From the NCBI GenBank assembly GCA_001600495.1, contig BCKE01000056.1:29895-93894 (forward strand): a stretch of DNA of 64,000 nucleotides. Direction: 5' to 3'. Positions 1-54,300 of this stretch are shown here, in pieces. The first letter of the stretch is position 1, and the number at the start of each line of letters is the position of its first letter. Made by a program: the position numbers and the translations under genes. The notes beneath the pieces were generated by a model, which saw nothing but the letters and a program-made list of their open reading frames with translations, was not told where the DNA came from and did not search any database. Source of the DNA: Pilasporangium apinafurcum. Lineage: Eukaryota > Oomycota > Peronosporomycetes > Pythiales > Pythiaceae.

Positions 1-3000
1 GACCTCTAATGGAAGTAAACAGATGGGAGAAGTGGATTGCCCATTTCGTGCCCAACCATTGCAGACGAGCACGAAGACGGTCAATGAAGATCTCAGCTTG
101 CTCTGGATCGATTTGGTCAATCAGTACAAGCGCATCGTTCCACCACATACTAGAACTACACAGTAGCTGTTGCCGCACTGGCAATTCCTTATCTACGGCA
201 GCCTTTACGTCTGTGAATAGGCGCAAGGCGGCTGTATGCGAAGACTCGACCTGGAACAAATAAAACCTTTTAATTCGGGTTCCGCAAGCGTCAAGAAGCG
301 CGCACTCTTGGATAATAGCCGCTCGATCGGTTGCACTCATCTCATCGGAATCAATCCCGCCAGCTGTCAGCCTCTGCTGCAAAGTTGGTAAGTTTGGCAA
401 TAAACTTTCTTTTTTTGGATTTTGATCGACCACGATGTCATCCATAAGCGCAAGAGTTCCATCTGCAGGTGTTGTCTCATCATCAATAAGTCCATCAGGC
501 TCCATCTCAAATACTGAGCGAACACACCGCGCTAGATTCTCCACGATATGCAATCGTGGCAACAGATCCGCACGATAAAGTGACCAATTCGAATTAACCG
601 TTTGAATCGACACCAGATACTTGAGAATAGCGGCAGGCACGTCCTGCATGATTACCAACAGCGATGCCAGCCCGTTCTGTGCCGCGAGGAACTTGCGTTG
701 TGCTTCTTCGCAGTCACGTTTGCTCTTGACGATCAGTTCATGCAGAAACTCATCCATCGTCAAGACATTCGTGCTAGAAAATTTACCTCGTCCGGCCAGC
801 GCGGTGTGGAGTGCACTACCGACCTGGGGATGGCAACAGATCTGACGAAGTCTGAGCACGTTGCGCCACACTGTATCAGCTACCTCAGCGTCTTCTCCTT
901 TATACCTCTCCATTTTGAGTGGTAGATCATCTGGTTCTGTTTGGACGTGTTCCTTGTCCTGCTGTTGTTGTTGTCGCTGTTGCTCGCGAACCAACGCAAT
1001 GATGCGCTTTTCTTGTTCTTCGTAGAAGTGTCGTTCAACTTTTGAGAACTGGCACCACACCACCTCACTCTTTTGCACGGGTAGTCCCAGTTGATTCAAT
1101 ACGTCCTGCTTACTTGTTCGCCATAAAATACCACCACCCGTTCGCTTTCTGATATGAGAACATCCGTCTCCACCGCTTTGATAACTCTTTCCATCCCATA
1201 GTAGCATATCGAGTACACGCTCCACGGCTCCTTTTGAAAAGCTTTGCTCGATTACTTCACGGAAGAAACGCTCGCCAAGCCACTTCTGCGCAAACGGCGG
1301 CACGCGTAAGAACTTAAAGCAGCCAAACAAATCACCAATCTGCGTCGAGAATGGCGTCCCTGTGACGACCCATTTCATCTGCGTTTGGATCTCCGCGACG
1401 GTCAATGCCGATTGTAATCGCGTGTTTTCTGCGCCGACCTGTGCTTCATCCATGCAAACGCGCCAAAATCTGAGAAACACGAGTGGCGACGCTACAAACG
1501 CGTATCGTTTCCGCTTTTGCCGTGTACTAGAACGCCGGTCTCGACCGTTTTCAGTAGGCAAGTGATGCAAGTCAGAGGCTAGTGCTTCATAGGTAGTAAG
1601 CACAATATCGTACGATGCCAAGTGTAAGCCGCCACTGGCGAGCACTTGCCACTCTGCACAGGGACCATGAGTTGCTAAACGACTACGAAGTGCCTTCACA
1701 CCTGGATATCGAAGCAGCTTCAAGGCGCCAGGTTTAACGTGCCGCTTGAATTCAAGCTCCCACTGATTGTGAATGGATTCAGGCGAGACGATTAACGTCG
1801 TTTTGCACGCAAACTGAGGCTTCTCGTGTATTTGGCAGTGAAAACACATGAACAAGTTAGACGAAAACGAATTCGATTTGCTCTTTGTGTGATATAAGCC
1901 ATTCGAGGCTACTTGGAATGATTTGCTCTGGGTGTTGTAGCCCGTACAGATTTGATGGTGCCATGTCTTGCAAAAATCACATTGGACCCATCCAAGCTCG
2001 TGTTCCGCCGAACTACCACAAATGCAATCTTGGATGTCAATGTCTTTATCATTTCCTATATCCATTTCTTGATTATTTTCATCCTTGGGTTCATATTCAG
2101 GAATGCGGTGCGATGTTTGCAATATTGGTTCAGAATTTGGATTCGGATGGCAAAGCACTAAGGTAATGACTTCAACCGTTTTGCCTAGACCCATCTCGTC
2201 AGCTAAGATTCCTCCGCTAATATTTGACAAATTTAATGAAGTGTTGAGGGATTTGGCTTCTTCTTCTTGGTCTTGTACTTGGAGTGTTCTTGAGCAATGA
2301 AACGCACCACAAAACGGATCATAAAGTAGACACGAGGGCGACGCCTTCATACCTGCTAGTGTCAACTTTCCAAACTCTACACATGTATATATCGCTTGAG
2401 ATATTGTGTCTTCTTCATCAACTTGCTCTGGTTTCTCTCGTGCCAACATCCACGACACTGCCGCTTTTTGATACTGCCGAAGCGTCGGTAATAAATTCCG
2501 ACTGCCTCCACAATCACTAGCTAAGGCGTGCTCAACATTCGTACTATCTCGCTGCAGATGCTCGTTGGAATCGATCCGCATATATATATCGTGAATATCA
2601 AACGTCGTATTCTCCAATCCAGTAATTTCTCCAACGAATCGAGTGTACAGCACGTCAATCTCCTTCCAGTACATATAGCTAACTTGAGTTGTATGCCTGT
2701 CGACATGTTTCAATAGCCATATCATCACATCGTGCATGCTGCGGTGGAGCAAAATCTGAGGCAGTGGTGTCATCGGTAGATTGTGTTCACAGAGCGTCAT
2801 GTACCTGCGCCAGTTGATACCAACTCTCCATTCAAAGCGCAACTTCTCCCTACGCTTCTTTTGCTGTTTTGCCTTGGAATTAATGTCTTCTTCTTTATCT
2901 TTGCTATTGCATTTGTGAATCTCTATTGCCAATAAATGACTTTGCGCCAAATACACTAATCGGTGTATCCATTGAGTAAATGTACCAAGGAAGAAATCGG

Positions 3001-3545
3001 CCAGTGTCAAGTCGGTTGCCATTCTGGTCTGATAACAAGAATTACTTCTCACAATCGATCGCAATAGCACCTGCGATCCATGAGCCGCAATTTCCAATCC
3101 AATTGGCGCTTTGCTGGATGGTTCGTCATCATCAAGAAACTGTATCAGCGTGTGTGTCACCTTGTCATTTGCCGATGCCAGTGGAATCGCCAGCCACAGC
3201 GCTTCTTCTCGCTCAAATACAACCGCCTTATCGTTACTTTCGTTTGTATTTTCGCTCTCGAAGCACGACAATTGCAGTGGCTGCGCGTTGGAATTGACAA
3301 ACATCTGGTCGCCTGAGTTCGCTTGTGTGCGCCTCTTCTTAGTTTTCTTTGGAGCTCCATGTTGTGTCTGGTATGGAGCACCAACTATTTCAACTTCATC
3401 ATTCGACTGCCAAGCGTCATCACTCACATCTGCGTTCTCTCCAGCACGTGCAGAAGCGTCAGCGGCAGTGGTTTCCTCCTCTCGCTGCTTCCGCTTGAGC
3501 TGCTGCAGGTTGCGCTGCACGTTTGTTGCTTTTCGTCTCGCCATT
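1..3545 (-). CDS. SHPRH/RAD5-like SNF2 helicase with PHD finger (5' part, runs off window)
   Basis: An open frame starts at ATG 3545 and stays open to base 1, so the 3' part, where a RING and helicase-C half would be expected, lies outside the window. Visible in order: a basic low-complexity N-terminus; the Walker A region GGILADEMGLGKTVE near residue 450; a PHD finger at about 507-540 (CICGSSAEHELGWVQCDFC, then WHHQICTGY) inserted in the first helicase lobe; and the DEAQ box (MDEAQVGAENT) near residue 698. This order is that of SHPRH/RAD5-type E3 ligases, which in yeast and animals act on PCNA and stalled forks. It is a diverged paralogue of the gene at 8459-13771, in opposite orientation, with the channel gene between them. 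Family assignment is firm; the role in this organism is inferred. Confidence 0.88.
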
Positions 3546-4049: not shown

Positions 4050-7034
4050 TTAGTGACCAACCCGATGCTGTAGGGACTGCTCCATCTTCTTCAAGTGTTC
4101 TTCCAGCTCCGCCAGCATTTTCTGCGTCTCATGACGATTATTCTCAAGCCAATCCGATATATTGTGCGTTCGCCAATGCGCAATGGTGTTCATCTGCAAC
4201 CGTTGAACGCTGTCAAATGTCTCCTTGGGTTTCTGCTTCCGCAAGACTTTGAACTGTTGCGCGATACGAAACAATTCCGCGTCCTGCTTGATAGCTTTCG
4301 CAGACGTGGAGTCTGAAATCTGTCGTTGCTGATAATGTTTCCATGCCGTGGAAATAAGCACCACACTCATGTGCCACATCTTCCGTTGCCACCGCACCTT
4401 CTCCATGGCTCCAATCATGTTGCGTTCATTTACCGATCCTTTCAAGGAATTGAGAAAGACTGACATCATGAGCGAAAGAAAAATTGCACCACCCAGCACA
4501 GCACCGAGGAAGACCGCCATGCGTCCACACGCAGTCATTGGGTAGGCATCTCCGTACCCAACAGATGTCATCGTGACAATCGTCAACCAAAGTGAATGCT
4601 CTTCGTTATCCAAAAGCGAAGGGAATGGCCGCTCAAAGATCGACACGGCCGCTGCCGTCCCTGCCCATAGAAGTGCAAACAGTGACACCAACAACTTGCC
4701 AGGTGCAAGTTTGAAAGAAATTCGGAAACTCCAGGCCAGGGAATCAATCGGAACACGCTGGAAGACACCACTCGCCATCAGTAATTGCTCCGCCAGCACG
4801 TCTTTCATCAAGTAATTACGGATCACGCGCACGAACCAATAGAGTCGCACGAGCACACACATGTTGATAATTTCGAGCGGGTAAAGATACTCCAGATAGC
4901 ATGCTTGATCATCATTGACCATGGTCATTCGCGCTGGACATTTCGTGAGTGTTGGGAGTGACGAGGAGATCGGTAGCAAATATCGTACTTCTCGCATGTG
5001 GATGTGGCCATGGACCAGCGGTGGCAAGAATAAAGCACATAGCCCCAATTCTATCACAAACGGCCCGAGGAGTTCACGTGGCGATTGGTAAAGCGCATTG
5101 CCACATTCAGGTGGAATTTCGTGACGAAGCGTCATCAACTGCATCTTGACCTGATACCGCTGATACAATTGGTATATGAGCGCCCCTGTGATCAGCACAA
5201 GAAGCGCAGCGTACGTTTCTCCTGGCGACTGTAGTGGTAGGGAATGACTTTGCATCTGCGAACGCCAAATACTTCGGATCTGTAGCATCACTGTTGTGAC
5301 TGAAAGAGCCGCGAGACAAATGCAGTAATTGTCGATTTCGGTTCGGAGTGCATACAGCTCGCGTAGTCGAGTCTGTTTACAAAGAATTTGCTTTGTGAGA
5401 TGGTCGACCTGTATATTGAGTTTTTGTTGATACGCTTGCTCATGTTGTGTTGGGAGACCCAGAAAAGCTGAATAACGCATGCTACATCGCTCTTTGCGCC
5501 ACAACCAAGTTATTCCAACTACACTAAGCAACACAACAGCAACTGCAGGCACTCGATCCCAGGCCGACCAATCAAAAAACCGACTTATAGAGCCTTCATC
5601 AAGCAGACGCAGCTGTGTGTCGCTTAACTTTGCTATTAGAACCGATGTCTCACTTGCGTTCACGTTAGCTGGAAACACGCGGAACGAAGTCGTATTGACC
5701 GATTGATCGTACTTTTGTGGTGCGTACATGACGACTTGGGCAAATTGACACAACTCGATGGGGAGAAGCACACCCACCACTAAGAAACAGGCGAACCACT
5801 TGCTCGCAAAGACAAGCCGCAAGCGACCAAATAATCGAACGGTAAGTTGATCCTTCACAAATCCAAAAAAATTGACGTGAACTGGGGTGCTCAGTGATGG
5901 GAACGTAAAGTCCTGCGCCACCCATAGCAAATCCAATCCAACCACCAGCCCGCTAAGCATCGCGCGCCACGACTCGTTACTAAACCATTTTCCTGTTGTT
6001 TCTTCACCACCTAAATGTAAATTCAGCCATTGTGACTGCATGCTATCAAATCCACCGCCATAGACACCACCCAACAAGACCAAGAGAACCAAACTCCAGC
6101 ACAAGATCACTCTTGTCATGGTATAGTTAGCGTACGTGTGGCGAACACGCACAAGCCAGTTCTGGTAGAGCGCACGACTGTAAACACGATCTTGAAGCAC
6201 AAGGTCAATCGTGACGAAGAGTTTGATGCAACTCATCGCCATCAGGAAATTGTACAACATCGTCTCAGTTTGCATTTGTGTCATTGTCAACTCTCCATTA
6301 CCAAATAGCCGATCATTGACGTCTTTAGAACTGACTGTGCTGAGTAGCTGCTGGATTACCCACACTGCTAAAGCCCAATGAAATGGATACATCAGTGCCA
6401 CAAACGTCCATGATCCTTGGGCAGTCGCACCGTTCCGCACTTCTACACGCAATTTGCGCGGTTGATCGCGGTCAGCACTGTTCACAGATGTACACAGCAG
6501 AATGGTCGTAGAATTCTCGACAGATCCGGTCGGCTCGACTTCTATTTTTCTGATGGTGGCGCTATTTGGACGTAATTCTGACATGCTGGAGAGTCGTGAG
6601 AACGTGCAGGCGGCGTGACGATACTGGTGAGCCCAATTACATTTGTGCTGGAGCCATTTCCGATACACAAACCATCGAAGAAAAGCAACAAGCAGTACAC
6701 TTAGCACCACGTGAAAGATTAACTTTACAGTCGTGATATCGGTCGTCATCACCGTGATCCATTTGCCATAGATGGGAAAATAGGGCGGCGACTGGAGTGC
6801 CCCCAGCAGTGGCGAGCTCGAGCAAAGCGCGAAGATGAATAAAAGATGCACCAGACACGCAGCGATACGTAGGAGCGGATGGCGGAGCGATGTGAGCAGC
6901 CACGTAGACTGCAAATACACATTTTCCTCTAGTTGTTGCTGCTGTGAAGAAAGCGCATGCGCTGCAGGAATGCTCTCATCGGTTGCATCCATCTCCAAGC
7001 GTTGCCACCTGATTTCTAAGCAGCATGTCATCAC
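4050..7034 (-). CDS. TMEM117-like domain fused to SK-type (KCNN-like) potassium channel
   Basis: Single-exon 994-residue polytopic membrane protein; M15 at 6992 is an alternative start. Residues about 45-470 match the layout of TMEM117: an HPLLRI start of the first membrane segment, GSWTFVALMYPF near 206, a DLVLQDRVYS motif, a GLDLLWVAQDFTFPS motif and RLVFASKWF. Residues about 530-960 look like a calcium-activated SK channel: an APGKLLVSLFALLW S5-like helix, an ERPF turn, the selectivity filter TMTSVGYGD near 824, an S6-like helix, then WKHYQQRQ and a coiled-coil tail where SK channels bind calmodulin. The S4 region is not strongly charged, as in SK channels. The expected role is a calcium-modulated potassium channel. 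TMEM117 itself has no settled biochemical function. Similarity was judged by eye from remembered family motifs. Confidence 0.8.
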   Translation of the reverse strand: MMTCCLEIRWQRLEMDATDESIPAAHALSSQQQQLEENVYLQSTWLLTSLRHPLLRIAACLVHLLFIFALCSSSPLLGALQSPPYFPIYGKWITVMTTDITTVKLIFHVVLSVLLVAFLRWFVYRKWLQHKCNWAHQYRHAACTFSRLSSMSELRPNSATIRKIEVEPTGSVENSTTILLCTSVNSADRDQPRKLRVEVRNGATAQGSWTFVALMYPFHWALAVWVIQQLLSTVSSKDVNDRLFGNGELTMTQMQTETMLYNFLMAMSCIKLFVTIDLVLQDRVYSRALYQNWLVRVRHTYANYTMTRVILCWSLVLLVLLGGVYGGGFDSMQSQWLNLHLGGEETTGKWFSNESWRAMLSGLVVGLDLLWVAQDFTFPSLSTPVHVNFFGFVKDQLTVRLFGRLRLVFASKWFACFLVVGVLLPIELCQFAQVVMYAPQKYDQSVNTTSFRVFPANVNASETSVLIAKLSDTQLRLLDEGSISRFFDWSAWDRVPAVAVVLLSVVGITWLWRKERCSMRYSAFLGLPTQHEQAYQQKLNIQVDHLTKQILCKQTRLRELYALRTEIDNYCICLAALSVTTVMLQIRSIWRSQMQSHSLPLQSPGETYAALLVLITGALIYQLYQRYQVKMQLMTLRHEIPPECGNALYQSPRELLGPFVIELGLCALFLPPLVHGHIHMREVRYLLPISSSLPTLTKCPARMTMVNDDQACYLEYLYPLEIINMCVLVRLYWFVRVIRNYLMKDVLAEQLLMASGVFQRVPIDSLAWSFRISFKLAPGKLLVSLFALLWAGTAAAVSIFERPFPSLLDNEEHSLWLTIVTMTSVGYGDAYPMTACGRMAVFLGAVLGGAIFLSLMMSVFLNSLKGSVNERNMIGAMEKVRWQRKMWHMSVVLISTAWKHYQQRQISDSTSAKAIKQDAELFRIAQQFKVLRKQKPKETFDSVQRLQMNTIAHWRTHNISDWLENNRHETQKMLAELEEHLKKMEQSLQHRVGH

Positions 7035-7290
7035 AACAAAAACCTCGCTTTTGTGGCCGTAATAAGAGGTACATGTCTCACTTTAGTGCCGATGTGCATT
7101 TGTGTTTGGACTACTTGAACCTTTGATCAAGTTCTTTGCAAGAGTGCATGAAATATGTCTAGTAAAAAACAAAAGAAAGAAATGATATGTCTTGATTTTC
7201 TGCTCAGATATGCAGCTACATCTCTTCTATCACTCACTAAGCTGAGTTTTTCTCTGATTTTTGACAATTGTGGGGATTTTAACACATTGG

Positions 7291-8458: not shown

Positions 8459-11400
8459 ATGGGACGCTTAAGTCGACACCCTTCGCAAGTCCACTATCAG
8501 TCTGTAGCAGCAAAGCCTACGAACTCCAAGGCTACCAAGACAACTATGCCAAAGAAGAAGACTCGTGGAAGGGCCCAAGAAGAAGACTCGAAGCAAAAAC
8601 ACACAAAAAAGCAAAAACTGAGTGACGCCAATGGCAAGTCAAGAAATAGCGATGTATGGGTGTGGTGTAATGGGTTCTATGTAAATCCACGACACTCCTC
8701 GCTCCGCCTTTCGTTCCAAGACTCCTGGACCGACGAGTACCGTGCTCAGGCACTGTGGATAGACTTTACTATTCACTCCAGTCCGGCGCTTACAACTGCA
8801 CTTTCGCATTTCTGCAAGAACCGAAATACTACTGGCAGGATTGGATTGGAAATCAAAGCGCATGAACCAGCTATTTGCTTTATCGATGGTTCGGATAAGT
8901 CAGTCTCTGCACCTACGGATTTGAAGATGGAAGATCTCTTCCCTAATACGTCTCATACATGGATGCAGCATTTGATAGCGCTGGTCAACAAAAACTTGTT
9001 GACCATGGAGATCAGTCCACCGAAAACTCACCGCCAACCTGTCAAGCGCCAACCCATCACACCGGTTATTGAGTGGCACTTCGGTATAGCCTGGCGCAAG
9101 TACGCTGAGCTTTGTCACACCCATAAAGCGACACTTCCGCCCACACCATCACTACGACTCGCTCTTCAAAAAAGCATGCATCGCGTCATGCTTTGGCTGG
9201 TTTGTCGTTCAGTTTTTCGCCGTGGAATACATTATTTTTATTGGGATGAACTGAGGGTAATGTACGCCGAGTACGTTGCGCCACCAACGATTGATCTTGA
9301 CCAGAACGAGAAACCTGTGACCAAGTTTGATATCAATGAAGTGTATGCATGCATCGATGCGAAGCAGCAGTTGCAACGCGATGTGAGCAACTACGACGAC
9401 GCGGTTAAAGGGAATGAACAACGACACAGCAACGCCCTATTGCCTACGCTGCGTAGCTACCAGAAGGCGGCCGTGTCTTGGATGCTGGCGAGGGAGACAA
9501 CAAATGCTGATCAGAGCAATGTGCCTATGCAGTATTGCGTCACATTTACGCGACCAGGAGACACTTCCTCTGATAAGCCGATGACGATACTCTACGATCC
9601 TTTTTGCGCTTATTTCCACCCACCAAAGAGCATGCAACTAGACCACTACGAGTCACTTCCACCGCCTACAACTACATTCTCGCCAATTAAAGGCGGTATC
9701 TTGGCTGATGAAATGGGATTAGGCAAGACGGTGGAGATGATTGCGCTGATCCTAGTTAACCCAAGTCAGTTGGACCATCCAATGTTTCAAACACAGCATT
9801 TTTCCACGATGTCGATCGACAATGATGAAGAAGCACTACAACCAACCAAGGCTTGCATCTGTGGCTCTAGTGACGACCACCACCTCGGATGGATCACTTG
9901 TGACTTCTGTCACACGTTGCATCACCAGCTCTGCACGGGATACAACCGCAAGACAAGCGCCTACGTGACCACAGCTACCGGCAAAGCCACACCCTGTGAC
10001 TCGTTCATGTGTTTTCACTGCCACAACCACCAACATCCACTCTCTACTTGCAAGACGACACTCATTGTTTCCCCTGAATCAATTCATGATCAGTGGGAAC
10101 TGGAATTGACACGTCACGTCAAACCAGGCGCCCTGACGCTGATGCGATACCTAGGTGTGAAGGCGATTCGTAGTCGATTGACCGGTCAAACAACCCGTCC
10201 CGAGACACCCAAGCCTAGTAGCGAATGGCAATTACTGGCAAATCCGTGGCATATGGCGAGTTACGATATCGTCCTCACAACTTATGAAGCACTAGCATCC
10301 GATCTGCACCACTTGCCGAACGAAAATGGTCATCATCGCCGCAGTAGCACACGACAAAAAAACAAAAAATACCCGTTTGTCGCATCGCCACTCGTGTTTT
10401 TGGAATTCTGGCGTGTCTGTATGGACGAAGCGCAAGTCGGTGTGGAAAACGTACATTTGCAGTCTGCATTGACCGTCGCGGAATTGAAGACACAGCGTCC
10501 GTGGATCGTCTCAGGTACGCCGTTCTCGACGCATATCGGCGACCTCTTTGGCTGTTTCAAGTTCTTGCGGCTCGAACCATTTGCTCGTGACAATGGGGAG
10601 CTCTTTTTCCGTGAAACGATCGTCAAGTGCTTTACAAAAGGTGTGAAAGGGCGTGTGATGCGTCTGCTCTTGTGGGATGGCAATAAAGAGTATAAAGCCG
10701 TTGGTGGTGGGCTATTATGGCGAACAAGTAAGCAAGATGTTCAAGATCAACTCAATATCCCCACACAGTCTACAGAGATCGTGTGGTGCACTTTCTCAAA
10801 ACTTGAACGCAGCTTTTACGACGAACAGCAGGAGAAAATCAAGGCATCACTTAGAAATCAACAACGAGAGCAAGAGCACAGTGAAGGCAAAGCGTCAATT
10901 GTCAAACTCAATGACCACGTCTGGAACGATTTGTTGGTGCTACGGCAGTTGTGTTGCCACCCACAGGTCGGTAAAATGTTCACCGCCACGTTTGGCGGTC
11001 GAAAAACCGGTAAACACCGCGGTGATGGAGGGCATGGTGTTTTGACGATGGACGAATTCCTAGATGAATTGATCACCAAAGCTCGACGTGCCTGTATTGA
11101 AGCGCAACGACGATTTCTCACGAGCCAAAACGATTTGGCAGCGATTTTAATCATCCAACAGCAACACAACACTGCCATCCAAACCTATATGAAGTCGCTT
11201 AATGCGATTCGCACGATGTGGCCTCTTGGGCATTGCGATTTAGTGACATTGCTGCATCTGGTGGGTAACTTGGCATGTGCAATACAATGGAAAGTCGAGG
11301 AAGTCTGCGGTGTCTCGATGACTAGTGAAGCACAGGATGATGCAAAAGAAGTAACGCAGTTTGATTTTGCAAACAATGAGTTTCTTTCACTACCTGCGAT

Positions 11401-13771
11401 TGAGCAAATGCTGATAGACAACAAGAAGATCGATCCACTTGCTATTTCGAAGGAATACAAACAATTAATATCACTCGCCAGCACCATCAAGAATCACTAC
11501 CTCATGCAAGTCGAATCGGTCCACACAACTGCGTTGCTGCATTTTCAATCACTTGTGAGCGCGTTGAATCCGCAGCTCATAGCTCAACAAAAACAGGAAA
11601 AGAGTTTGTCGTGGATGAATGCGCTCATGGTTATTGAACATCATGCCTCTTCCCGCCAGGTAACGGAGATGATCGATCGTCTACGTGCACGTTTGCTTTC
11701 GATCAATACATCGTGGACGACCTCGTTCTGTAAGAAATTTACAACTTTGGCAGGATTCCGAACAGCGCTGACTAAAGAATGGCAGCAGTTGCTGGTGGAG
11801 CGCCAGGCGTTGCACGATCAATTACTAAAGTTGAGCCAACAACCGCCAACTGAACAAGATATTGCCAAATCGGGCAACTGTGGTATTTGCCGCGTTGGGC
11901 GAGTCGGTGCGATATGTCGACACTGTCAGCTCTATCCGTTTGTGAAAGGTTATCATCTCCATTTGTTGGGTGTCGCACCTTCGTATGGAAATGCCAATAA
12001 ACTCGATGGAGAAGACAACGAAGTGACTGTACTGAACTGGCCCAACCAAAGAAGCAACAGCGGAGCAGCCAATCGCGCTTCCGTCTTTCGCGATATCTTT
12101 ATGCACATCACCAGTACCGCCGGGGCATTGGTTTCATCAGCAGAAATGCAAGACATAGAACAAGGGCTGAAGACAGAATTGGACCGCTTAACGTTGTTAC
12201 AGAAGGAATGGAACGCGGCCAACAAACTGTTTATCGCTCAGCACGAGCGGCTGGCGAGATTGGACGAGTTAGCCACCGCGACGCAGAAAATTTGTCTTCA
12301 AGAACCAGGTGAAATGGTCATAACAGCTCGCGATCGTTACTACAAGATCGAAGAAGACGAGGTCGATGTGCGCCGTGAACAATTTGAGCTCGAAGGTATT
12401 GCTGCTGCCCACGACATGCAGACCACACAGGCGAAATTACGGTATTTGCTACAGCTCGAATCCGAAAAACAGCAAAAATCAGACACTAAAAACAATATCA
12501 CTGCATCGGACAGTGAGGCAAACTGCCTCGTATGCCTGGAGACAGTTGGGAATGATCGCGGCATGCTACCATGTGCGCATATGTTTTGCTGGCCATGCAT
12601 GACTCATCTCATGCAGCATCAGAATGAGAAGACAAGTGAAGTGAAATGCCCAGTTTGCCGCGAAGTGTGCGCGTCCGCGAATGTTATGCATGTGAATACC
12701 GGTGGACAAGAAGAAAAAACAGCCAAAGATCAAATACTTGCGGATAAGCATATTACACTGAAGCGAAGTGGCTTTGGCTCGAAAGTTGATGCGATTTTGC
12801 GTCGTGTTGTTGCGCTGACAACTGCTAATCCTAACGTCAAGTGTCTGCTCTTCACGCAATGGCTCGATATGCTAACGGTTGTGGCGACCGCCTTGAAGCT
12901 GAACGACATTCGGTGCTTTGCCTACACAACCAAGAAGGCGTTTCCGGCGTTGGTGGACGATTTTAAGGTGTTTGACGGTCCGTGTGTGCTGGCAATGCCA
13001 TTTAAGAACGGCGCGAACGGGTTAAATGTGGTGGAAGCCACTGAAGTGCTGCTTGTAGAGCCACTGTTGACCCCCGCAGTTGAGGCACAGGCGATTAACC
13101 GTGTGCATCGCATCGGTCAGACGAAGCCTACGCGTGTGCACCGCTTTCTTGTCACCCGCTCGGTCGAAGAACGAATTTACAACCTGACTCAACAACGAAG
13201 TTCAGTGAACAAGAGCACGCCTGATACTAAAGAAAAGGAACAAAGAGAAGGCGATACTGAATCTACACCGCACGATCGATTTACCAAGAAGGAAGAGAAA
13301 GAGCGGATCACATTGTGCGATTTAGACTTGCTATTGAACGAGAATGATAAAGAAAGTGATCCTATGGACTCTTCGAGTACCCAGAAGCCAATCAATTCAA
13401 CGGCAGTGCAGGTGGAGAACGAAGCTGAGCCGATGAACGCCGATCCGCATGCGTTTTGGCTGGAGTACGTGATATTCCAAGGGAAGACGTACACGCGCGA
13501 TCAAGCGCGTCAGTTGCTAGAGACTGAGTATAATGAACAGTTGAAAGCAAACAATGCAAATAACAAGAAAATGCTGAAGAAAACGAAGAAAGATGAGCCA
13601 ATCACCTATTTATTTAACAAATACGTGAACATCTTCGTAGCGAATGACCTCATGCAACTGGAATACGCAATTGAGAACAAAGAAAATGAAGTCCGGATTG
13701 AGACCAACGTGCTGAAATTCCATCAATCCCGACTGCGCGTGCAATGCAAGGTGTGGAAAGAATCCAATTAG
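8459..13771 (+). CDS. SHPRH/RAD5-like helicase and RING E3 ubiquitin ligase
   Basis: Intact 1770-residue single-exon gene. M30 at 8546 (MPKKKTRGRAQ, a basic possibly nuclear-targeting start) is an equally likely initiator. Domains: Walker A GGILADEMGLGKTVE near 422; PHD finger at about 464-500 (CICGSSDDHHLGWITCDFC); DEAQ box near 654; a long helical insert; RING finger at about 1354-1402 (CLVCLETVGN, then PCAHMFCWPC, then CPVCRE); helicase-C lobe at about 1457-1575 with NGANGLNVVEATEV and the AINRVHRIGQTKPTRVHR motif VI. The split helicase with PHD and RING inserts defines the SHPRH family; relatives polyubiquitinate PCNA in damage tolerance. The C-terminal 190 residues are charged and poorly conserved. 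It is the better preserved member of an inverted duplicate pair. Confidence 0.93.
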   Translation: MGRLSRHPSQVHYQSVAAKPTNSKATKTTMPKKKTRGRAQEEDSKQKHTKKQKLSDANGKSRNSDVWVWCNGFYVNPRHSSLRLSFQDSWTDEYRAQALWIDFTIHSSPALTTALSHFCKNRNTTGRIGLEIKAHEPAICFIDGSDKSVSAPTDLKMEDLFPNTSHTWMQHLIALVNKNLLTMEISPPKTHRQPVKRQPITPVIEWHFGIAWRKYAELCHTHKATLPPTPSLRLALQKSMHRVMLWLVCRSVFRRGIHYFYWDELRVMYAEYVAPPTIDLDQNEKPVTKFDINEVYACIDAKQQLQRDVSNYDDAVKGNEQRHSNALLPTLRSYQKAAVSWMLARETTNADQSNVPMQYCVTFTRPGDTSSDKPMTILYDPFCAYFHPPKSMQLDHYESLPPPTTTFSPIKGGILADEMGLGKTVEMIALILVNPSQLDHPMFQTQHFSTMSIDNDEEALQPTKACICGSSDDHHLGWITCDFCHTLHHQLCTGYNRKTSAYVTTATGKATPCDSFMCFHCHNHQHPLSTCKTTLIVSPESIHDQWELELTRHVKPGALTLMRYLGVKAIRSRLTGQTTRPETPKPSSEWQLLANPWHMASYDIVLTTYEALASDLHHLPNENGHHRRSSTRQKNKKYPFVASPLVFLEFWRVCMDEAQVGVENVHLQSALTVAELKTQRPWIVSGTPFSTHIGDLFGCFKFLRLEPFARDNGELFFRETIVKCFTKGVKGRVMRLLLWDGNKEYKAVGGGLLWRTSKQDVQDQLNIPTQSTEIVWCTFSKLERSFYDEQQEKIKASLRNQQREQEHSEGKASIVKLNDHVWNDLLVLRQLCCHPQVGKMFTATFGGRKTGKHRGDGGHGVLTMDEFLDELITKARRACIEAQRRFLTSQNDLAAILIIQQQHNTAIQTYMKSLNAIRTMWPLGHCDLVTLLHLVGNLACAIQWKVEEVCGVSMTSEAQDDAKEVTQFDFANNEFLSLPAIEQMLIDNKKIDPLAISKEYKQLISLASTIKNHYLMQVESVHTTALLHFQSLVSALNPQLIAQQKQEKSLSWMNALMVIEHHASSRQVTEMIDRLRARLLSINTSWTTSFCKKFTTLAGFRTALTKEWQQLLVERQALHDQLLKLSQQPPTEQDIAKSGNCGICRVGRVGAICRHCQLYPFVKGYHLHLLGVAPSYGNANKLDGEDNEVTVLNWPNQRSNSGAANRASVFRDIFMHITSTAGALVSSAEMQDIEQGLKTELDRLTLLQKEWNAANKLFIAQHERLARLDELATATQKICLQEPGEMVITARDRYYKIEEDEVDVRREQFELEGIAAAHDMQTTQAKLRYLLQLESEKQQKSDTKNNITASDSEANCLVCLETVGNDRGMLPCAHMFCWPCMTHLMQHQNEKTSEVKCPVCREVCASANVMHVNTGGQEEKTAKDQILADKHITLKRSGFGSKVDAILRRVVALTTANPNVKCLLFTQWLDMLTVVATALKLNDIRCFAYTTKKAFPALVDDFKVFDGPCVLAMPFKNGANGLNVVEATEVLLVEPLLTPAVEAQAINRVHRIGQTKPTRVHRFLVTRSVEERIYNLTQQRSSVNKSTPDTKEKEQREGDTESTPHDRFTKKEEKERITLCDLDLLLNENDKESDPMDSSSTQKPINSTAVQVENEAEPMNADPHAFWLEYVIFQGKTYTRDQARQLLETEYNEQLKANNANNKKMLKKTKKDEPITYLFNKYVNIFVANDLMQLEYAIENKENEVRIETNVLKFHQSRLRVQCKVWKESN

Positions 13772-15539: not shown

Positions 15540-17903
15540 ATGGCCGACGACGGTGCCGCAACTTCCCCCGCACCAGCGTCGCCAAACAAGTTGGCACAGA
15601 AAATTGAAAGTGCACAGCAAACAGATGCGAAGCTCGCGGGCTTCCCTCAATTCACCCCGCATCACCGGTCGCTCATGGCGAAGCACCTCACGCGCGAGAT
15701 ATACACCAATCTGAAGGATACGAAGACGTCAACCGGGTACACGCTTGAACGCGCGATCCAGACTGGTGTTGATAACCCGCACTTGGGCGTAGGCATCACT
15801 GCAGGTGACGAGGAGACGTATCATGTCTTCAAGGAAATCTTTGATCCGATCATCGAAGGATGGCATGGGTTTAAACCGGATGCTATCCACAAATGTGATA
15901 TGGATCCGACCCACGTCACCGACGCCAAACTGCCGGATGAATTCATCGTGTCGACGCGGATCCGTGCAGGGCGGAACATCCGCGGGTTGCCATTGCCACC
16001 AGCGACCTCACGCGCACACCGGAAGGACGTGATGAACCTGCTGCAGTCTGCTCTCTCAGCGATGGACGGAGATTTGGCTGGCAAGTTCTACAAGCTCTCG
16101 GAGATGACGCCCGAAGACGAGCAGAAGCTCATCACCGACCACTTCTTGTTCCAGAAACCCGGTGGTGGAACACTCTTGGAAGCTGCGGGAGCAGCGCGTG
16201 ACTGGCCTTCGGCGCGTGGTATCTTCCACAATAACGACAAGACATTCTTGGTTTGGTGCAACGAAGAAGACCACATGCGTGTGATCAGCATGGAAAACGG
16301 AGGAGATGTTGGCCGTGTCTTTGAGCGGTTCTGCCGCGCGATCAAGAGCGTCGAAGCGAGCATTAAAGCCCAGGGTAGAGAGTTCATGTACAATGACCAC
16401 CATGGTTTCATTGGTACATGTCCGTCCAATTTGGGTACGGGGTTGCGTGCGAGTGTCATGATCAAATTGCCCAAGCTCAGTGAAGATATTAAACGGTTTG
16501 AGCACATTTGTTCGCTGTTGCACCTGCAGCCTCGAGGGAGCGCTGGGGAGCACTCGGAGTCGGTCGGAGGGGTCTACGATGTCTCAAACAAGCAGCGCAT
16601 TGGTCATTCTGAGGCAGAGCTCGTGCAGACGATGGTAAACGGAATCAAGTTGCTCATCGCCATGGAGCAGAAGCTTGTGGCGGGTGAGTCGATCGACGCG
16701 TTGATTCCAACGGAGCCAGCACCACCTGTCGTGATTGATGCCGGTGCACCACTTGCGCCTACCGATACGAGTATCGCCGTGTTGCCATCGAATGAATGCA
16801 ATTTCCCTGAGTTCACGCCCAAGCACCGCAGTTTGATGGCCAAGCATTTGACCAAGGAACTGTATGAGAAACTCAAGGATGTCAAATCAAGCAAAGGATA
16901 TACACTTGATATGGCAATCCAAACGGGGATTGACAACGCGCATTTGGGCGTAGGCATCGTCGCTGGTGATGAAGAATGTTACGAGCTCTTCAAGGATATC
17001 TTTGACCCGGTGATTGAGGGCTGGCATGGTTTCAAACCGGATGACAAGCACCACACGGACATGGATGTGTCGAAGCTTGTCAATGCCGACAAGATCGACA
17101 GCAACTATGTGCAATCAACGCGTGTTCGGTCGGGGAGAAACATCCGCGGGCTCAGTCTGCCGCCTGGAACGACGCGTGCCGAGCGACTGGAGGTTGAAAA
17201 CTTGATCTCAACTGCACTGTCGTCGCTGACTGACGAACTCCAGGGAAAATACTATCCATTAAGCAACATGACGAAAGAAGAAGAAGATCAGTTGCAAAAA
17301 GACCACTTTCTCTTTCAGAAACCCGGGGGTGGTACATTGTTGACTGGTGCGGGTGCTGCCCGTGATTGGCCGAGCGGTCGTGGCATCTTCCACAACGACC
17401 AGAAAACGTTTTTGGTCTGGTGTAATGAAGAAGACCACATGCGCGTTATTAGCATGCAGAACGGTGGTAACATTCTCGAAGTGTTTGCGCGGTGGGTGAA
17501 AGGAGTCACTGCAGTCGAGGAAAGCATCAAGAAAAACGGCTACACGTTCATGCATAATGACCATCACGGTTTCCTTGGTACCTGTCCATCGAATTTGGGT
17601 ACTGGCTTGCGTGCCAGTATGTTTGTCAAGCTCGAGAAGCTCGGTGCTGACCCACATGCGTTGGAGGCGATTTGCGCACCATTTGGACTCCAACCACGTG
17701 GCTCGGCAGGTGAGCACTCGGCGGCCGTCGGTGGTATGTGGGACGTCTCGAACAAGGCGAGAATAGGCAAATCCGAGGTGGAACTTGTGCAAACGATGAT
17801 TGATGGCGTCAGCAAGCTCATCGAATTGGAGAAAGAATTGGAAGCGGGAAAGAGCTACGAAGATGTGCTGGCGTCCGTGGGTGTCACACCAGGAGCTCAT
17901 TAA
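15540..17903 (+). CDS. Two-domain phosphagen (taurocyamine/arginine) kinase
   Basis: Single-exon 787-residue protein made of two similar kinase domains, at about 34-395 and 421-787. Each opens with FTPxHRSLMAKHLT and carries STRIRAGRNIRGL or STRVRSGRNIRGL, TFLVWCNEEDHMRVISM with the catalytic glutamate, and GTCPSNLGTGLRAS with the reactive cysteine (near 293 and 680). Phosphagen kinases move phosphate between ATP and a guanidino compound to buffer energy. Oomycete double-domain members have been characterised as taurocyamine kinases, so taurocyamine is the likely substrate, although the sequence alone does not exclude arginine. Both domains keep the catalytic residues. No targeting peptide is evident; the Ala/Pro-rich start suggests a cytosolic or flagellar protein. 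Confidence 0.93.
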   Translation: MADDGAATSPAPASPNKLAQKIESAQQTDAKLAGFPQFTPHHRSLMAKHLTREIYTNLKDTKTSTGYTLERAIQTGVDNPHLGVGITAGDEETYHVFKEIFDPIIEGWHGFKPDAIHKCDMDPTHVTDAKLPDEFIVSTRIRAGRNIRGLPLPPATSRAHRKDVMNLLQSALSAMDGDLAGKFYKLSEMTPEDEQKLITDHFLFQKPGGGTLLEAAGAARDWPSARGIFHNNDKTFLVWCNEEDHMRVISMENGGDVGRVFERFCRAIKSVEASIKAQGREFMYNDHHGFIGTCPSNLGTGLRASVMIKLPKLSEDIKRFEHICSLLHLQPRGSAGEHSESVGGVYDVSNKQRIGHSEAELVQTMVNGIKLLIAMEQKLVAGESIDALIPTEPAPPVVIDAGAPLAPTDTSIAVLPSNECNFPEFTPKHRSLMAKHLTKELYEKLKDVKSSKGYTLDMAIQTGIDNAHLGVGIVAGDEECYELFKDIFDPVIEGWHGFKPDDKHHTDMDVSKLVNADKIDSNYVQSTRVRSGRNIRGLSLPPGTTRAERLEVENLISTALSSLTDELQGKYYPLSNMTKEEEDQLQKDHFLFQKPGGGTLLTGAGAARDWPSGRGIFHNDQKTFLVWCNEEDHMRVISMQNGGNILEVFARWVKGVTAVEESIKKNGYTFMHNDHHGFLGTCPSNLGTGLRASMFVKLEKLGADPHALEAICAPFGLQPRGSAGEHSAAVGGMWDVSNKARIGKSEVELVQTMIDGVSKLIELEKELEAGKSYEDVLASVGVTPGAH

Positions 17904-24782: not shown

Positions 24783-25499
24783 TTACAAAATGCTCTCCAT
24801 GGGCATTTCGAGAGCGACTTGCTTCTCTATCTTTGCATATCCTTTGGTGCTTCTTTTATCGTTACTATGGCTTCCAAACCAGAACACGATCGCCAGTTGT
24901 AGCGCACCCAACGCAAGGTTGACAGCATTTGGGAGAATGACAAAGAGATCTGCCAAAATGCATCCATACGTCAGCCACGACACACTATTAAGGAATCCTG
25001 CGACGATCATGGTCAGTGGCAGTAGCTCCGTGTTCTTCGTTTGAATGACCTCCTTTACCACCACTAGTGGTGAACCGATCATCACCGCCGCCATTGTGAT
25101 TGCGATCAGCCCTATGTGGCTCTTTACTTGCTCTTGGTCCTCTGGACTCACTATGGGATAAACCGCCACAAGTGTCAAGCCACCAACTGCCCATGCGATT
25201 TGCACTTGTACAGGCCGTTTAACTGGTGCGTAGCGGTAATAGACGCCCAAATACCCTAAGGAGCACACGACGCCGACACTATTCGTGGCCACTAATGGAA
25301 AATAATCGCCGACTAAAACCCCATAAATCCCCCAGCAGATACAGTTGGCAAGCATGGAGAGAATCGGCAAGAGCGGCATCATAACGGTCGTTTGTTGGTG
25401 ATACACCTCACGGACTGCAGGAAAGAGACTCGCAAACATGTAACATGCTGCCAATGACGCGGAAAGTCGTACGACCTCAACCACTTCCGACGCGACCAT
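24783..25499 (-). CDS. SWEET (MtN3/saliva) sugar transporter
   Basis: 238 residues, single exon, seven predicted membrane helices in the 3+1+3 SWEET layout. The first MtN3 repeat has MPLLPILSMLANCICWGIYG with the pore Pro and Asn, and an NSVGVVCSLGYL helix. The second repeat has ELLPLTMIVAGFLNSVSWL with Pro, Asn and Trp, and PNAVNLALGALQLAI. SWEETs are facilitators of mono- or disaccharide movement across plasma or internal membranes; the sugar is not predictable here. The C-terminal tail is short and basic. Direct repeats flank the gene at about 24.5 and 25.6 kb. Confidence 0.93.
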   Translation of the reverse strand: MVASEVVEVVRLSASLAACYMFASLFPAVREVYHQQTTVMMPLLPILSMLANCICWGIYGVLVGDYFPLVATNSVGVVCSLGYLGVYYRYAPVKRPVQVQIAWAVGGLTLVAVYPIVSPEDQEQVKSHIGLIAITMAAVMIGSPLVVVKEVIQTKNTELLPLTMIVAGFLNSVSWLTYGCILADLFVILPNAVNLALGALQLAIVFWFGSHSNDKRSTKGYAKIEKQVALEMPMESIL

Positions 25500-25937
25500 C
25501 TCGCTGCTGCTGATGCATGTGTAGAGGTAGACAACAGGTGCTGAATGTTGTCACTTTGGACGTTCAGTGTGCCGAGGCCAAAATAGGAATAACTAGTAGA
25601 CAGTAGTGAATAGCTGCTTGGAAGAGCCAATAGATTTGCTATTTTGGTCAATGGCGGTTTATTCCTATAGCTTTATTTAGCAAATTGACTCAAAAGCAGT
25701 GGGAGTTATCTGCGAGAATTCTGTCATGATCCGCTTTTACAATAATGCAATGCCTCAAACCGACCTCGTATGAATAACTTGGATACTCCAGACGATACGC
25801 AGTCATCTTGCGTTCACGATGACGTGCTGGCACTGAAAAACATCAGACTGCAACTTAATATCTTCACTTTTGCTTATAAAGAGCCCTAGAGTATCACAGA
25901 CTCGCCTTGTTTTCTGAGCTGATTCTCACGCGGATTA
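25500..25937. other. Intergenic with right copy of SWEET-flanking repeat
   Basis: Bases 25536-25645 hold the second direct repeat (ACTTTGGACGTTCAGTGTG ... CAGTAGTGAATAGCTGCTTG). The rest shows no gene. Confidence 0.5.
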
Positions 25938-40915: not shown

Positions 40916-43893
40916 TCAATCGATCGGGCGGACTTGTCCGTGCATGGATGAGAGCAATATGTTGCCGACTGCATCGTCTCCGGCATTTTCTGTATGCATG
41001 TGCTCCATATTAGGTACTGCGTGGAGGATATTGGTGGTGCGGTCAGTAAAATATGCTTTATCAGCCATAGCATTGCTGCTATTTGTGGTGCTATAGTGTC
41101 GTTGTCGTGGGCTTATTGTTGGGATGACAATGGAATTGTGGCCTAAGTGAATGATTTCGTCCAGTTTTTTATGAAATCGGTCACGATACGGTTTTGGTGG
41201 CATCGCGGAGATCCCCTCGGGGTCTTTACGCATCAACACCGTTTTCATAAACCGTTCAAAACGCTTCTCCAAGTTCCACGTTTGCAGGATGTCAATGAGT
41301 CCGATGTAGTAGAAACCTGGACCAATAACCACTTCAGATGTGCGTAAACATCTCGTGGATTGTTTGATACGTTCTCTTTTTGTACTTTCATCGGGTGTTT
41401 CGAATTCAGCCGATGCCATCATGTTTTCCAAGAAGACACTACCGTCACGAGTGAGAATGTTCTGCTGGTTCACTTGGTAACTCACTTCGATCACACCAAG
41501 CAGCAGCGAGTAATCCATGATACCTTGATCACAGAGGAAATCACTGTCGCGTTTCAGCTGGTGCAGCAATTTCTTGCCCTCAGCTTTGCCGAAACGAAGC
41601 TTTGTAGTAAGATCCATATCTTTTAAAACAACATTTGGCTCATGGCTGCCTGCTCGATTCGGACAGACATTGCGACCGATGCCGCAGCGAAATGTCATGT
41701 TGCAATGCCTGCATGTAGCTTCGGAGCCTGTTTTGGCTTTTTGCGCGTTGCGATCGATCCACGAGCCCTTGATATCATACCGCTGATGAATCGAAATGCC
41801 GTGTTGGATGTCAAACACGTTCTCCATGACCACAAAATGCGCCTTCTTGCCATAAAGTACAATACAATAACTTCCTAGGAAGCGGGTAAGGAAAGTGTCC
41901 TGTTGCGACGTCATGTACTCCACGTATGCGTCCAGAAAACTATGTAAAAAATCGCTTTCTTTGCCTGTCAACGACTTGACAATGTAGCAGCGATCGCTCG
42001 AGTAAAACATGAACGACCCACTTGCTCCCTCACTCACTTTCGGGGTCGTGCAGTTCGCGAGGGACGTTAAGTATTCATCATCATTGATGCCAAAGAGCTG
42101 CCGAATCTGCAGGAATGCCTGTGATCGGAAATCCGTAAATTTACATTCGTTCAATGCAGAGGTGGATCCAGCCGATGGTCGTAATGCAAACGTATAGGAT
42201 GGTGCATGCTGGTACGGGTTGTTGGCTACCATACGAACGGCCATGGCGATGCCCTGCGTGGTATAAAACACGAGCTCTTCGAGTAACGCAATATTCATCT
42301 GTGGCCGCACAGCATCATCGTTGGCTTCATCGAGATCTTGTGTCGTGACAGAAGACCGTCGACCTGCTGCAGTTGTTGGTTGTTCTTCTTGTTGAGTAGT
42401 AGGTGTGGTTTTGGCTCTGGTTCGTTTCTTCTTTGGACGTTTGTACAGACACCAGAGTGAGAAGGCGACGCTGCCTCGGTATGAGAGAAGGAACGCAAAG
42501 ATGTGGCTGAGGATATCAGTAGCAGTTGGGGATGATACAAACCAATATGCAGCATAAAATCCCCATAGCACTGCTGAATACGCGATCAGCGTCAGGGTCG
42601 TCAAGAAACCTTCACGAAGCAGTACCTGCCGATTCTTGAGCGTGGCTGCGATGCCATCTCGAAACCGACCATAGGAGACAAATGTCACGTAGATATTTGC
42701 GCCCATGGACACTACAACAGGTGAGACGATAAAAACCCAGATGCCGCTTCGCGCGAGAACAGCGGTGCCATCTTCGTTCCGTTTCGCACCGACCCAACAG
42801 AAATTTCCTACGGCGACGGGCGAATCAAACGCCTTGAAGGCAGGCATGAGGATGGCGGCAATAGTCGCTGCTGTGTGTACGAGAAACTGGTACTTGCGTC
42901 GGTTCATCCGAGGTGACGTGAATGGGTCCGTCATCTGCGTGCATAAATATCAGCGCCAGTACATAAGACCGATAATGCATACAAATCGTACCAGATAATA
43001 AAGATCGAGCGCCATGCATGTCGTCCAGGCACTTGAACACATAATTAAATATTCGCGCACTATGGAAAGCTACAAGGAAGAGCCCGCTCATCAGCACTAT
43101 CCAGTCAGAATTAAACCATAGTCATTTGCGTACTCACCCAGTGACACGAAAGTCCAGGGCCAACTCCTTCGCCAAGAGACTTCCAAACCGGTTCCAGCAC
43201 AAACGACAACCCCAAACAGAATTCACAAAGCGCAAGATTAAGCAATAGGATATGCATGTGCCGTCGATACCATTTCGTCCAGATGAATGACCCAATTACA
43301 ACCGAACACATCAGTAACGACCCCACCGAGCCCAAGATCAGGGCTGCATTGATATCTGTCGCTTTGAAGATCTCATGCCGAAAGCACAATGAACACGCTC
43401 CAAGTACAAACGAAAAGAAAAGAACGCAGGCAGTGATGCGCATCTGGCTTTTTCCCTCGCCTGATGGCGGCTTGAGCAGCTCAAGGATGTTGTGAATCGC
43501 TTGATCGATGCTGCTACGATTCATGACTTCTCGATATCGGAGACTCGAGACTCGATTTCGTTCTCCATCTGCTCCAATTGATACAATATCTTCACTGTCA
43601 CCAATTTCTGCATTTTTGTGGCTCACTGATGATGAAGATGAAGTCTTCACTTCTGCAGTGGCACCCTTGAAGACACTGGGGATTTCTTCTTCCTGTTCAT
43701 TATTTTGTTCGTCCTCTTGAAGGTAACTTGTCGATGGTGGACGGAGCTGCTCGGCTTCTTCAGGTAAAGTTGCGGGGTTATAATATAAAGATCGGATGGG
43801 CATCGCAGTGGATGACGCCGTGGATTCAGGAGTGATAGGTGCACACTCGGCTACTCCTCGCTCTTCTTCTATGTGTTCCGCTAGAGTGGTCAT
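40916..43893 (-). CDS. GPCR-PIPK (7-TM receptor fused to phosphatidylinositol-phosphate kinase)
   Basis: Exons 43893-43138, 43069-42992 and 42934-40916 join to 950 residues. A 145-residue acidic N-terminus precedes seven or eight membrane helices at about 150-440, including MHILLLNLALCEFCLGL, the conserved SCHW, REYLIMCSSAWTTCMALD (exon 2) and LTLIAYSAVLWGFYAAYW. A Lys-rich linker leads to the kinase domain at about 530-890: GASGSFMFYSS, YDIKGSWIDR, CDQGIMDYSLLLGVIEV and YYIGLIDILQTW. The order is that of the receptor-lipid kinase fusions known from Dictyostelium RpkA and the Phytophthora GK family, which link an unknown ligand to PIP production. A Cys/His insert (CRHCNMTFRC) lies inside the kinase. 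The 26-codon exon 2 is essential for one helix. Confidence 0.92.
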
Positions 43894-53558: not shown

Positions 53559-54300
53559 CTCAGGAGATCGAAAAATTATCAAGAGATACCAAAGTATCAA
53601 ATAATGGCTCCTGTTGTTTGTCTTCCAATTGGTCGACTTGGGTCTGACAAGTGCTTGGGCAAGCAGATATCTCGAGAAAGACAGCCCCGATACTTGGACC
53701 AGATTGGCCCAGGAATAAACATTCGTTCTTGAGAAAGATATTTTTCACGGCGTTGATATCGCGATCCACAGCCAAATTGCACGATGAGCACAAGACTTCT
53801 CTCTGTACTTGGATACTGTGGTTGATTCTCTCACAGCAAGAACATATTTTCGACGTGTAATATTCTTTGCATTCAATCACACGTCCTCCTAATCGCTCCA
53901 TCTTGTACTCCAGTATTTTCTTGAATTTATAGTGCGAGAACGTGAGCATTGCTCTCGAAACTTTGCTGGAAATCCGTTTTTGTTTCGAAGTCATCTTAGA
54001 TGTAGCAAACGTTGGAAACAGGAATTGATTGTAATTGTCCGATAACCGCTTTGAAACCTTGTGATGCATATCTGATATCATTGCTTTCATTCGATTGTAT
54101 AATCGAACAATCAATCGTTTTATGCGATAACGTTTGCGCTTGGACTTCTCATTCATCGACATTAACTTGAGACGATCAATCAAAAGACAGCGCATGAAAA
54201 TCTTGTATTTATCCTTGGGATCATTAACGCTCAAGGTTAACCCTTGGGGGTCGTATATCGTGATAAAATTACGAACTCCAGGATCGATCGCGCACAACCG
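53559..54300 (-). pseudogene. Fanzor copy with intact RuvC and zinc ribbon, 5' truncated
   Basis: An open frame at 54297-53560 carries RuvC-I CAIDPGVRNFITIYD, a helical region, FLFPTFATSKMTSKQKR, the segment MLTFSHYKFKKILEYKM, VIECKEYYTSKICSCCE (zinc ribbon with the candidate relocated glutamate), VLCSSCNLAVDRDINAVKN (RuvC-III) and a tail to the right end. An in-frame TAG lies just upstream and the N-terminal recognition region is missing, cut off where an inverted partner copy begins at about 54310. It is the best-preserved catalytic core of this family in the window. It cannot be active as it stands without the N-terminus. Confidence 0.82.

Follow-up and report, generated by a model that had tools for sequence, protein, structure and literature searches.

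Oomycete genomes are described as favouring gene fusions, and several oomycete ion channels are built from fused genes. Phytophthora sojae has nine 'tetrameric' Ca2+-activated K+ channels that carry four motifs in a single exon (PMC2705460). Two-repeat Kv-like and CNBD channels are reported from oomycetes in a study that sets IK/SK channels aside (PMC7576140), and PKD-RyR channels are a further case (PMC4820453). The cation channels of P. infestans have been described by stage, with TMEM unmentioned in the available portion of that paper (PMC5322657). On the other side of the present comparison stands TMEM117. The human protein has a cytosolic C terminus and a TM7-TM8 loop glycosylated at N353 and N371 (PMC4938508), and TMEM117 affects mitochondrial membrane potential and cardiac hypertrophy (PMC10550824). 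The available text of the latter paper contains neither 'calcium' nor 'ion channel', and 'potassium' solely as a reagent. As far as the text of these two papers was available, TMEM117 is without a molecular mechanism (PMC4938508, PMC10550824).

The gene described here lies in a window of 64,000 nucleotides from Pilasporangium apinafurcum, the whole stretch of DNA that was analysed. It resembles the oomycete channels above in that a channel is fused inside one gene (PMC2705460, PMC7576140, PMC4820453). It differs from the four-repeat (PMC2705460) and two-repeat (PMC7576140) channels, in which the repeats are those of the channel itself, and from the PKD-RyR channels, in which RyR domains have been added (PMC4820453). 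TMEM117 is not mentioned for any of these fused channels in the available portions of the three papers, and TMEM occurs 0 times in that of PMC7576140. The supplement to PMC2705460 covers 273 fused proteins, and a TMEM117-channel gene may be among these. The open-licence literature, as far as its text was available, holds no report of a TMEM117-K+ channel fusion, and no open-licence paper pairs TMEM117 with an oomycete. No K+ channel appears in the titles or abstract beginnings of TMEM117 papers (best 30 of 102), and papers on potassium channels and domain architecture did not bring up TMEM117 (best 10 of 311). If real, the fusion would extend the range of fused channels in oomycetes by a further kind.

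Gene model and topology

A first-pass annotation made from the letters alone had proposed one uninterrupted frame. That frame is present, with 994 codons and one stop; the annotation gave no strand for it, and the strand is minus. The features are as follows, in window coordinates.

4050..7034 (-): one open frame that encodes the fusion, 994 codons and a stop
5499..6875 (-): TMEM117-like module, residues 54-512, TM1-TM8 (Pfam PF15113, hydropathy, alignment to a provisional human TMEM117 sequence)
5688..6422 (-): extent of the TMEM117 profile match, residues 205-449 on profile positions 101-332 of 411 (Pfam)
5652..5696 (-): two N-glycosylation sequons, N447 and N459, in the TM7-TM8 loop (sequence scan)
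5325..5498 (-): linker from TM8 to S1, residues 513-570, 58 residues (hydropathy; cytosolic if both ends are inside)
4821..5324 (-): S1-S4, residues 571-738 (hydropathy; phmmer alignment from residue 722 on)
4464..4694 (-): S5, pore and S6, residues 781-857 (PDB matches, hydropathy)
4548..4565 (-): K+ selectivity filter SVGYGD, residues 824-829 (sequence)
4200..4463 (-): post-S6 region, residues 858-945, with a layout like the SK/IK calmodulin-binding helices, weak when taken alone
4053..4163 (-): helix with a heptad pattern at the C end, residues 958-994, a candidate for a coiled coil (heptad moment; helix in a low-confidence AlphaFold model)

The frame needs no intron over its 994 residues. 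Its first codon as shown is GTG, an unlikely start in a eukaryote; the better candidates are the ATG codons at window 7031 (residue 2) and 6992 (residue 15). Upstream, at 7083-7085, there is an in-frame TAA, 16 codons ahead of the first codon shown. The resulting stop-free run of 1010 codons has a log10 P of about -24, calculated for one given frame and independent bases, and the longest stop-free run in the other five frames across the same bases is 112 codons. By codon usage, scored after training on six further long frames of the window, the fusion frame ranks first of the six reading frames in 11 of 17 blocks, although this score is a weak guide. The landmarks listed at first pass recur in the order given, once each: GSW at residue 207, LQD at 280, QDFTFP at 374, SKWF at 411 and SVGYGD at 824.

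The sole hint of a seam is at residues 481-540, around TM8, where the codon score is 0.03 and GC3 is 0.35. Two donor-like words, at residues 461 and 560, are followed by acceptor-like ones. The gap from TM8 to S1 is only 58 codons, which leaves little room for the terminator and promoter that two genes would need.

Hydropathy gives 14 segments, eight ahead of the linker and six behind it, the weakest at 1.36. The method is a simple 19-residue scan with a threshold of 1.0, and it also flags three segments (1.12-1.21) within the soluble PIP5K domain of a neighbouring gene. With both ends assumed inside, lysine and arginine make up 67 of 458 residues in inside loops vs 18 of 256 outside, a bias that fits a cytosolic location for both ends of the predicted protein. 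An eight-pass module with a cytosolic C end would place S1 on the correct side of the membrane. A coiled coil in the linker was considered and dropped, since 885 of 2000 shuffles reach its heptad pattern. The idea that the two halves are repeats of one fold was likewise rejected: apart from a 10-residue match that is the overlap of the two cut pieces, BLASTP of the N-terminal against the C-terminal half gives only E-values of at least 8.7.

The TMEM117-like half

Pfam PF15113 (TMEM117), whose cut-off is 27 bits, scores 40.9 bits on the whole protein (E = 1.7e-10) and 42.8 bits on residues 15-530 alone (E = 4.3e-11). The reversed N-terminal half, used as a control, matches no Pfam family up to E = 10. 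The first-pass view of this half as TMEM117-like is borne out by these profile results. In the whole-protein search the match misses the first 100 and last 79 profile positions.

For pairwise comparison we used a provisional human TMEM117 sequence, which itself scores 778.2 bits against the full Pfam TMEM117 profile. Local alignment to it scores 113, compared with 39.9 +/- 5.3 for shuffled sequences (0 of 1000 reach 113) and 51 for the reversed N-terminal half. A MAFFT alignment retains GSW, LQD, QD-F/W-x-FP, KWF, YxPxxYxQ and SRF before TM8. Global alignment recovers the same motifs from LQD onward. Both pairwise alignments extend to TM8 and disagree over the N-terminal third, where homology to TMEM117 is less sure because the global alignment leaves GSW and the earlier segments unaligned. 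Residues 15-560 match no solved structure among PDB chains at E up to 5.

Likeness to the TMEM117 family consists of a profile match above cut-off, eight hydrophobic segments, sequons in the TM7-TM8 loop and the order of motifs in the MAFFT alignment. Of the six sequons in the predicted protein, two fall in this loop and are candidate glycosylation sites. The differences are an identity of 26% to the provisional human sequence in the MAFFT alignment, and a longer TM2-TM3 loop of 85 residues opposite which the human side is gapped. The fusion also ends in a K+ channel, whereas human TMEM117 ends in a disordered cytosolic tail (PMC4938508).

The potassium channel half

The C-terminal half matches Pfam PF07885 (Ion_trans_2) with E = 2.3e-9, 37.4 bits against a cut-off of 22.5. 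Three Pfam families come up for the reversed channel half; none of them reaches its cut-off or is a channel family. A search of PDB chains returned 173 distinct sequences at E up to 1, and the following ranking is taken from the best 60 of 173. The top solved structure is the IK channel KCNN4 (6cnm_A, 4.5e-14), which aligns to residues 722-964, from S4 to past S6. SK2 is second (9vu9_A, 1.3e-9, residues 723-983). KcsA-type chains come next, the first two at 1.6e-6 and 1.8e-6 (7mhr_C = 1.8e-6), and KCNQ2 is at 1.2e-4. Residues 717-994 searched alone leave the order KCNN4, SK2, KcsA unchanged. For the linker with S1-S4 alone (residues 521-755), PDB chains yield no match up to E = 5.

Identity to KCNN4 (alignment A2) is 14/46 in S4 and the S4-S5 linker, 24/76 in S5-pore-S6 and 16/86 in the post-S6 region. 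S4 reads VRLYWFVRVIR vs LRLYLVPRAV in KCNN4, and only 3 of 2000 shuffles of residues 722-790 (S4 and the S4-S5 linker) score as well against KCNN. With the channel half, the linker with S1-S4 or the tail as query, neither the Pfam SK_channel model nor the calmodulin-binding domain (CaMBD) model, which we take to be PF03530 and PF02888, is listed at E = 10 or better; HMMER filters can hide weak matches of this kind.

The first-pass assignment to the SK type stands in part. This half is upheld as a K+ channel whose nearest solved structures, among the matches listed, are those of IK/SK channels; the unlisted Pfam SK and CaMBD models count against an SK type. We regard this half as a K+ channel nearest the IK/SK (KCNN) group and as a candidate member of that group. 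It is like KCNN4 and KCNN2 in that these are the best solved matches from S4 through the post-S6 helices among the matches listed, and in sharing the GYGD filter, RLY in S4 and a C-terminal heptad helix. It differs in carrying an eight-pass N-terminal module and in the two unlisted Pfam models.

The tail beyond S6 bears on calcium gating. The post-S6 region aligns to KCNN4 with few gaps and with A-W-x-x-Y in register, and 54 of 2000 shuffles score as well. Searched alone, residues 856-994 find no SK chain, and their sole PDB match is a dynein regulatory subunit at E = 2.9. An IQ-like family, PF15157, also matches weakly in the tail (E = 0.036; 14.8 bits, with the cut-off at 28). Residues 868-907 show no heptad pattern (1676 of 2000 shuffles). 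The heptad moment of residues 958-994, one of three regions tested, is reached by 16 of 2000 shuffles.

Judged from its sequence, the fusion channel is likely calcium-activated. The calcium-linked K+ flow suggested at first pass keeps the argument from nearest similarity to IK/SK, with the unlisted SK and CaMBD models and a tail that is weakly SK-like alone standing against it.

Proposed mechanism, alternatives and genomic context

The domain order, the single frame, the K+ filter and the segment count can be read directly from the predicted protein. They describe what would be a 14-pass protein in which 58 cytosolic residues link an eight-pass TMEM117-like module to a complete six-pass K+ channel subunit. 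On balance we favour a K+ channel of SK/IK type in which each subunit has a TMEM117 module as a built-in partner. Four such subunits would assemble around one pore, and calmodulin on the post-S6 helices would open it on a rise in Ca2+. The four TMEM117 modules, joined one to each S1, would surround the pore and may serve as auxiliary subunits built into the protein, with an influence on gating, stability or trafficking. An action of the module on the channel is the part of this model with the least support; we put it forward tentatively, at a little under an even chance.

The halves may be truly fused and translated, with the TMEM117 module a mere passenger, used for trafficking or as a membrane anchor and without effect on gating. 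Apart from the linker, the sequence gives no sign that the halves touch. A preference for gene fusion is described for oomycete genomes (PMC4820453), and the fusions listed from Phytophthora sojae are numerous (PMC2705460). However, the frame is intact across both halves, and the module retains the TMEM117 landmark residues, TM8 and the loop sequons. The intact frame and the kept landmarks suggest that the module is still under selection, and we consider a passenger role somewhat unlikely. A real fusion could also involve a generic six-pass K+ channel that lacks Ca2+/calmodulin gating and whose post-S6 tail mimics the SK layout. The unlisted SK_channel and CaMBD models point this way, as do the weak shuffle test of the tail (54/2000), its 16/86 identities and the failure of the tail alone to find an SK chain. 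We hold this to be unlikely, given that residues 722-964 are far closer to KCNN4 than to other solved channels among the matches listed, that S4 with the S4-S5 linker is KCNN-like (3/2000 shuffles) and that the tail aligns with few gaps and keeps A-W-x-x-Y.

A false fusion, arising from two adjacent genes, a mis-assembly or a spliced model, would account for the dip in GC3 and coding signal at residues 481-540 and for the donor-like and acceptor-like words around it. It is highly improbable: no stop interrupts the 994 codons, the 58 codons from TM8 to S1 offer scant space for a terminator and promoter, and TM8 with the linker supplies the topology that both halves need. In a broader, Rosetta Stone reading, the TMEM117 proteins of animals likewise serve Ca2+-activated K+ channels as auxiliary subunits or regulators, and the oomycete gene is the joined pair; this is a long shot. 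Short of that, the gene suggests, without proving it, that potassium channels can be acted on by proteins of the TMEM117 type, and a general role of TMEM117 in K+ flow is one that we infer from the fusion alone. As an intact natural fusion, the gene provides a specific, testable hypothesis of a TMEM117-KCNN link.

Structure prediction on each half separately, a check proposed at first pass, was run with AlphaFold without an alignment and gave poor models (pLDDT 42.8 and 43.2). We made no fold search with them, because matches of such poor models carry no meaning. Searches for relatives covered collections not meant for oomycetes. No relative was confirmed among pattern matches in IMG/VR (3 + 39) or in GTDB genomes (11 + 49), pattern searches that mostly find close relatives, and tblastn found none among phages. 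PF15113 was found in 0 of 14 control genomes, a result that does not show absence.

The fusion gene is flanked by two SHPRH-like SNF2 frames on opposite strands, at 2-3544 (-) and 8459-13768 (+). They are 43% identical (491 of 1132 aligned positions) and may be an inverted duplication that encloses the channel gene. Further along the window, the gene at 40919-42949 (-) has a PIP5K domain after five hydrophobic segments. It resembles the PIP5 kinases with GPCR-like TM domains of Phytophthora sojae, a reported oomycete fusion (PMC2705460), a likeness that agrees with an oomycete origin of the window without establishing it. A 246 aa frame at 53563-54300 (-) matches Cas12f1-like TNB (1e-19), with an OrfB_IS605 match just under cut-off (29.4 vs 30.5 bits), and looks like a piece of a TnpB/Fanzor-like nuclease in a eukaryotic window. 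The remaining neighbours of note are a SWEET/MtN3 sugar transporter frame with two matched stretches at 24786-25550 (-) and a phosphagen (guanidino) kinase frame at 15540-17900 (+), in which the N domain and the C domain are each matched over two stretches.
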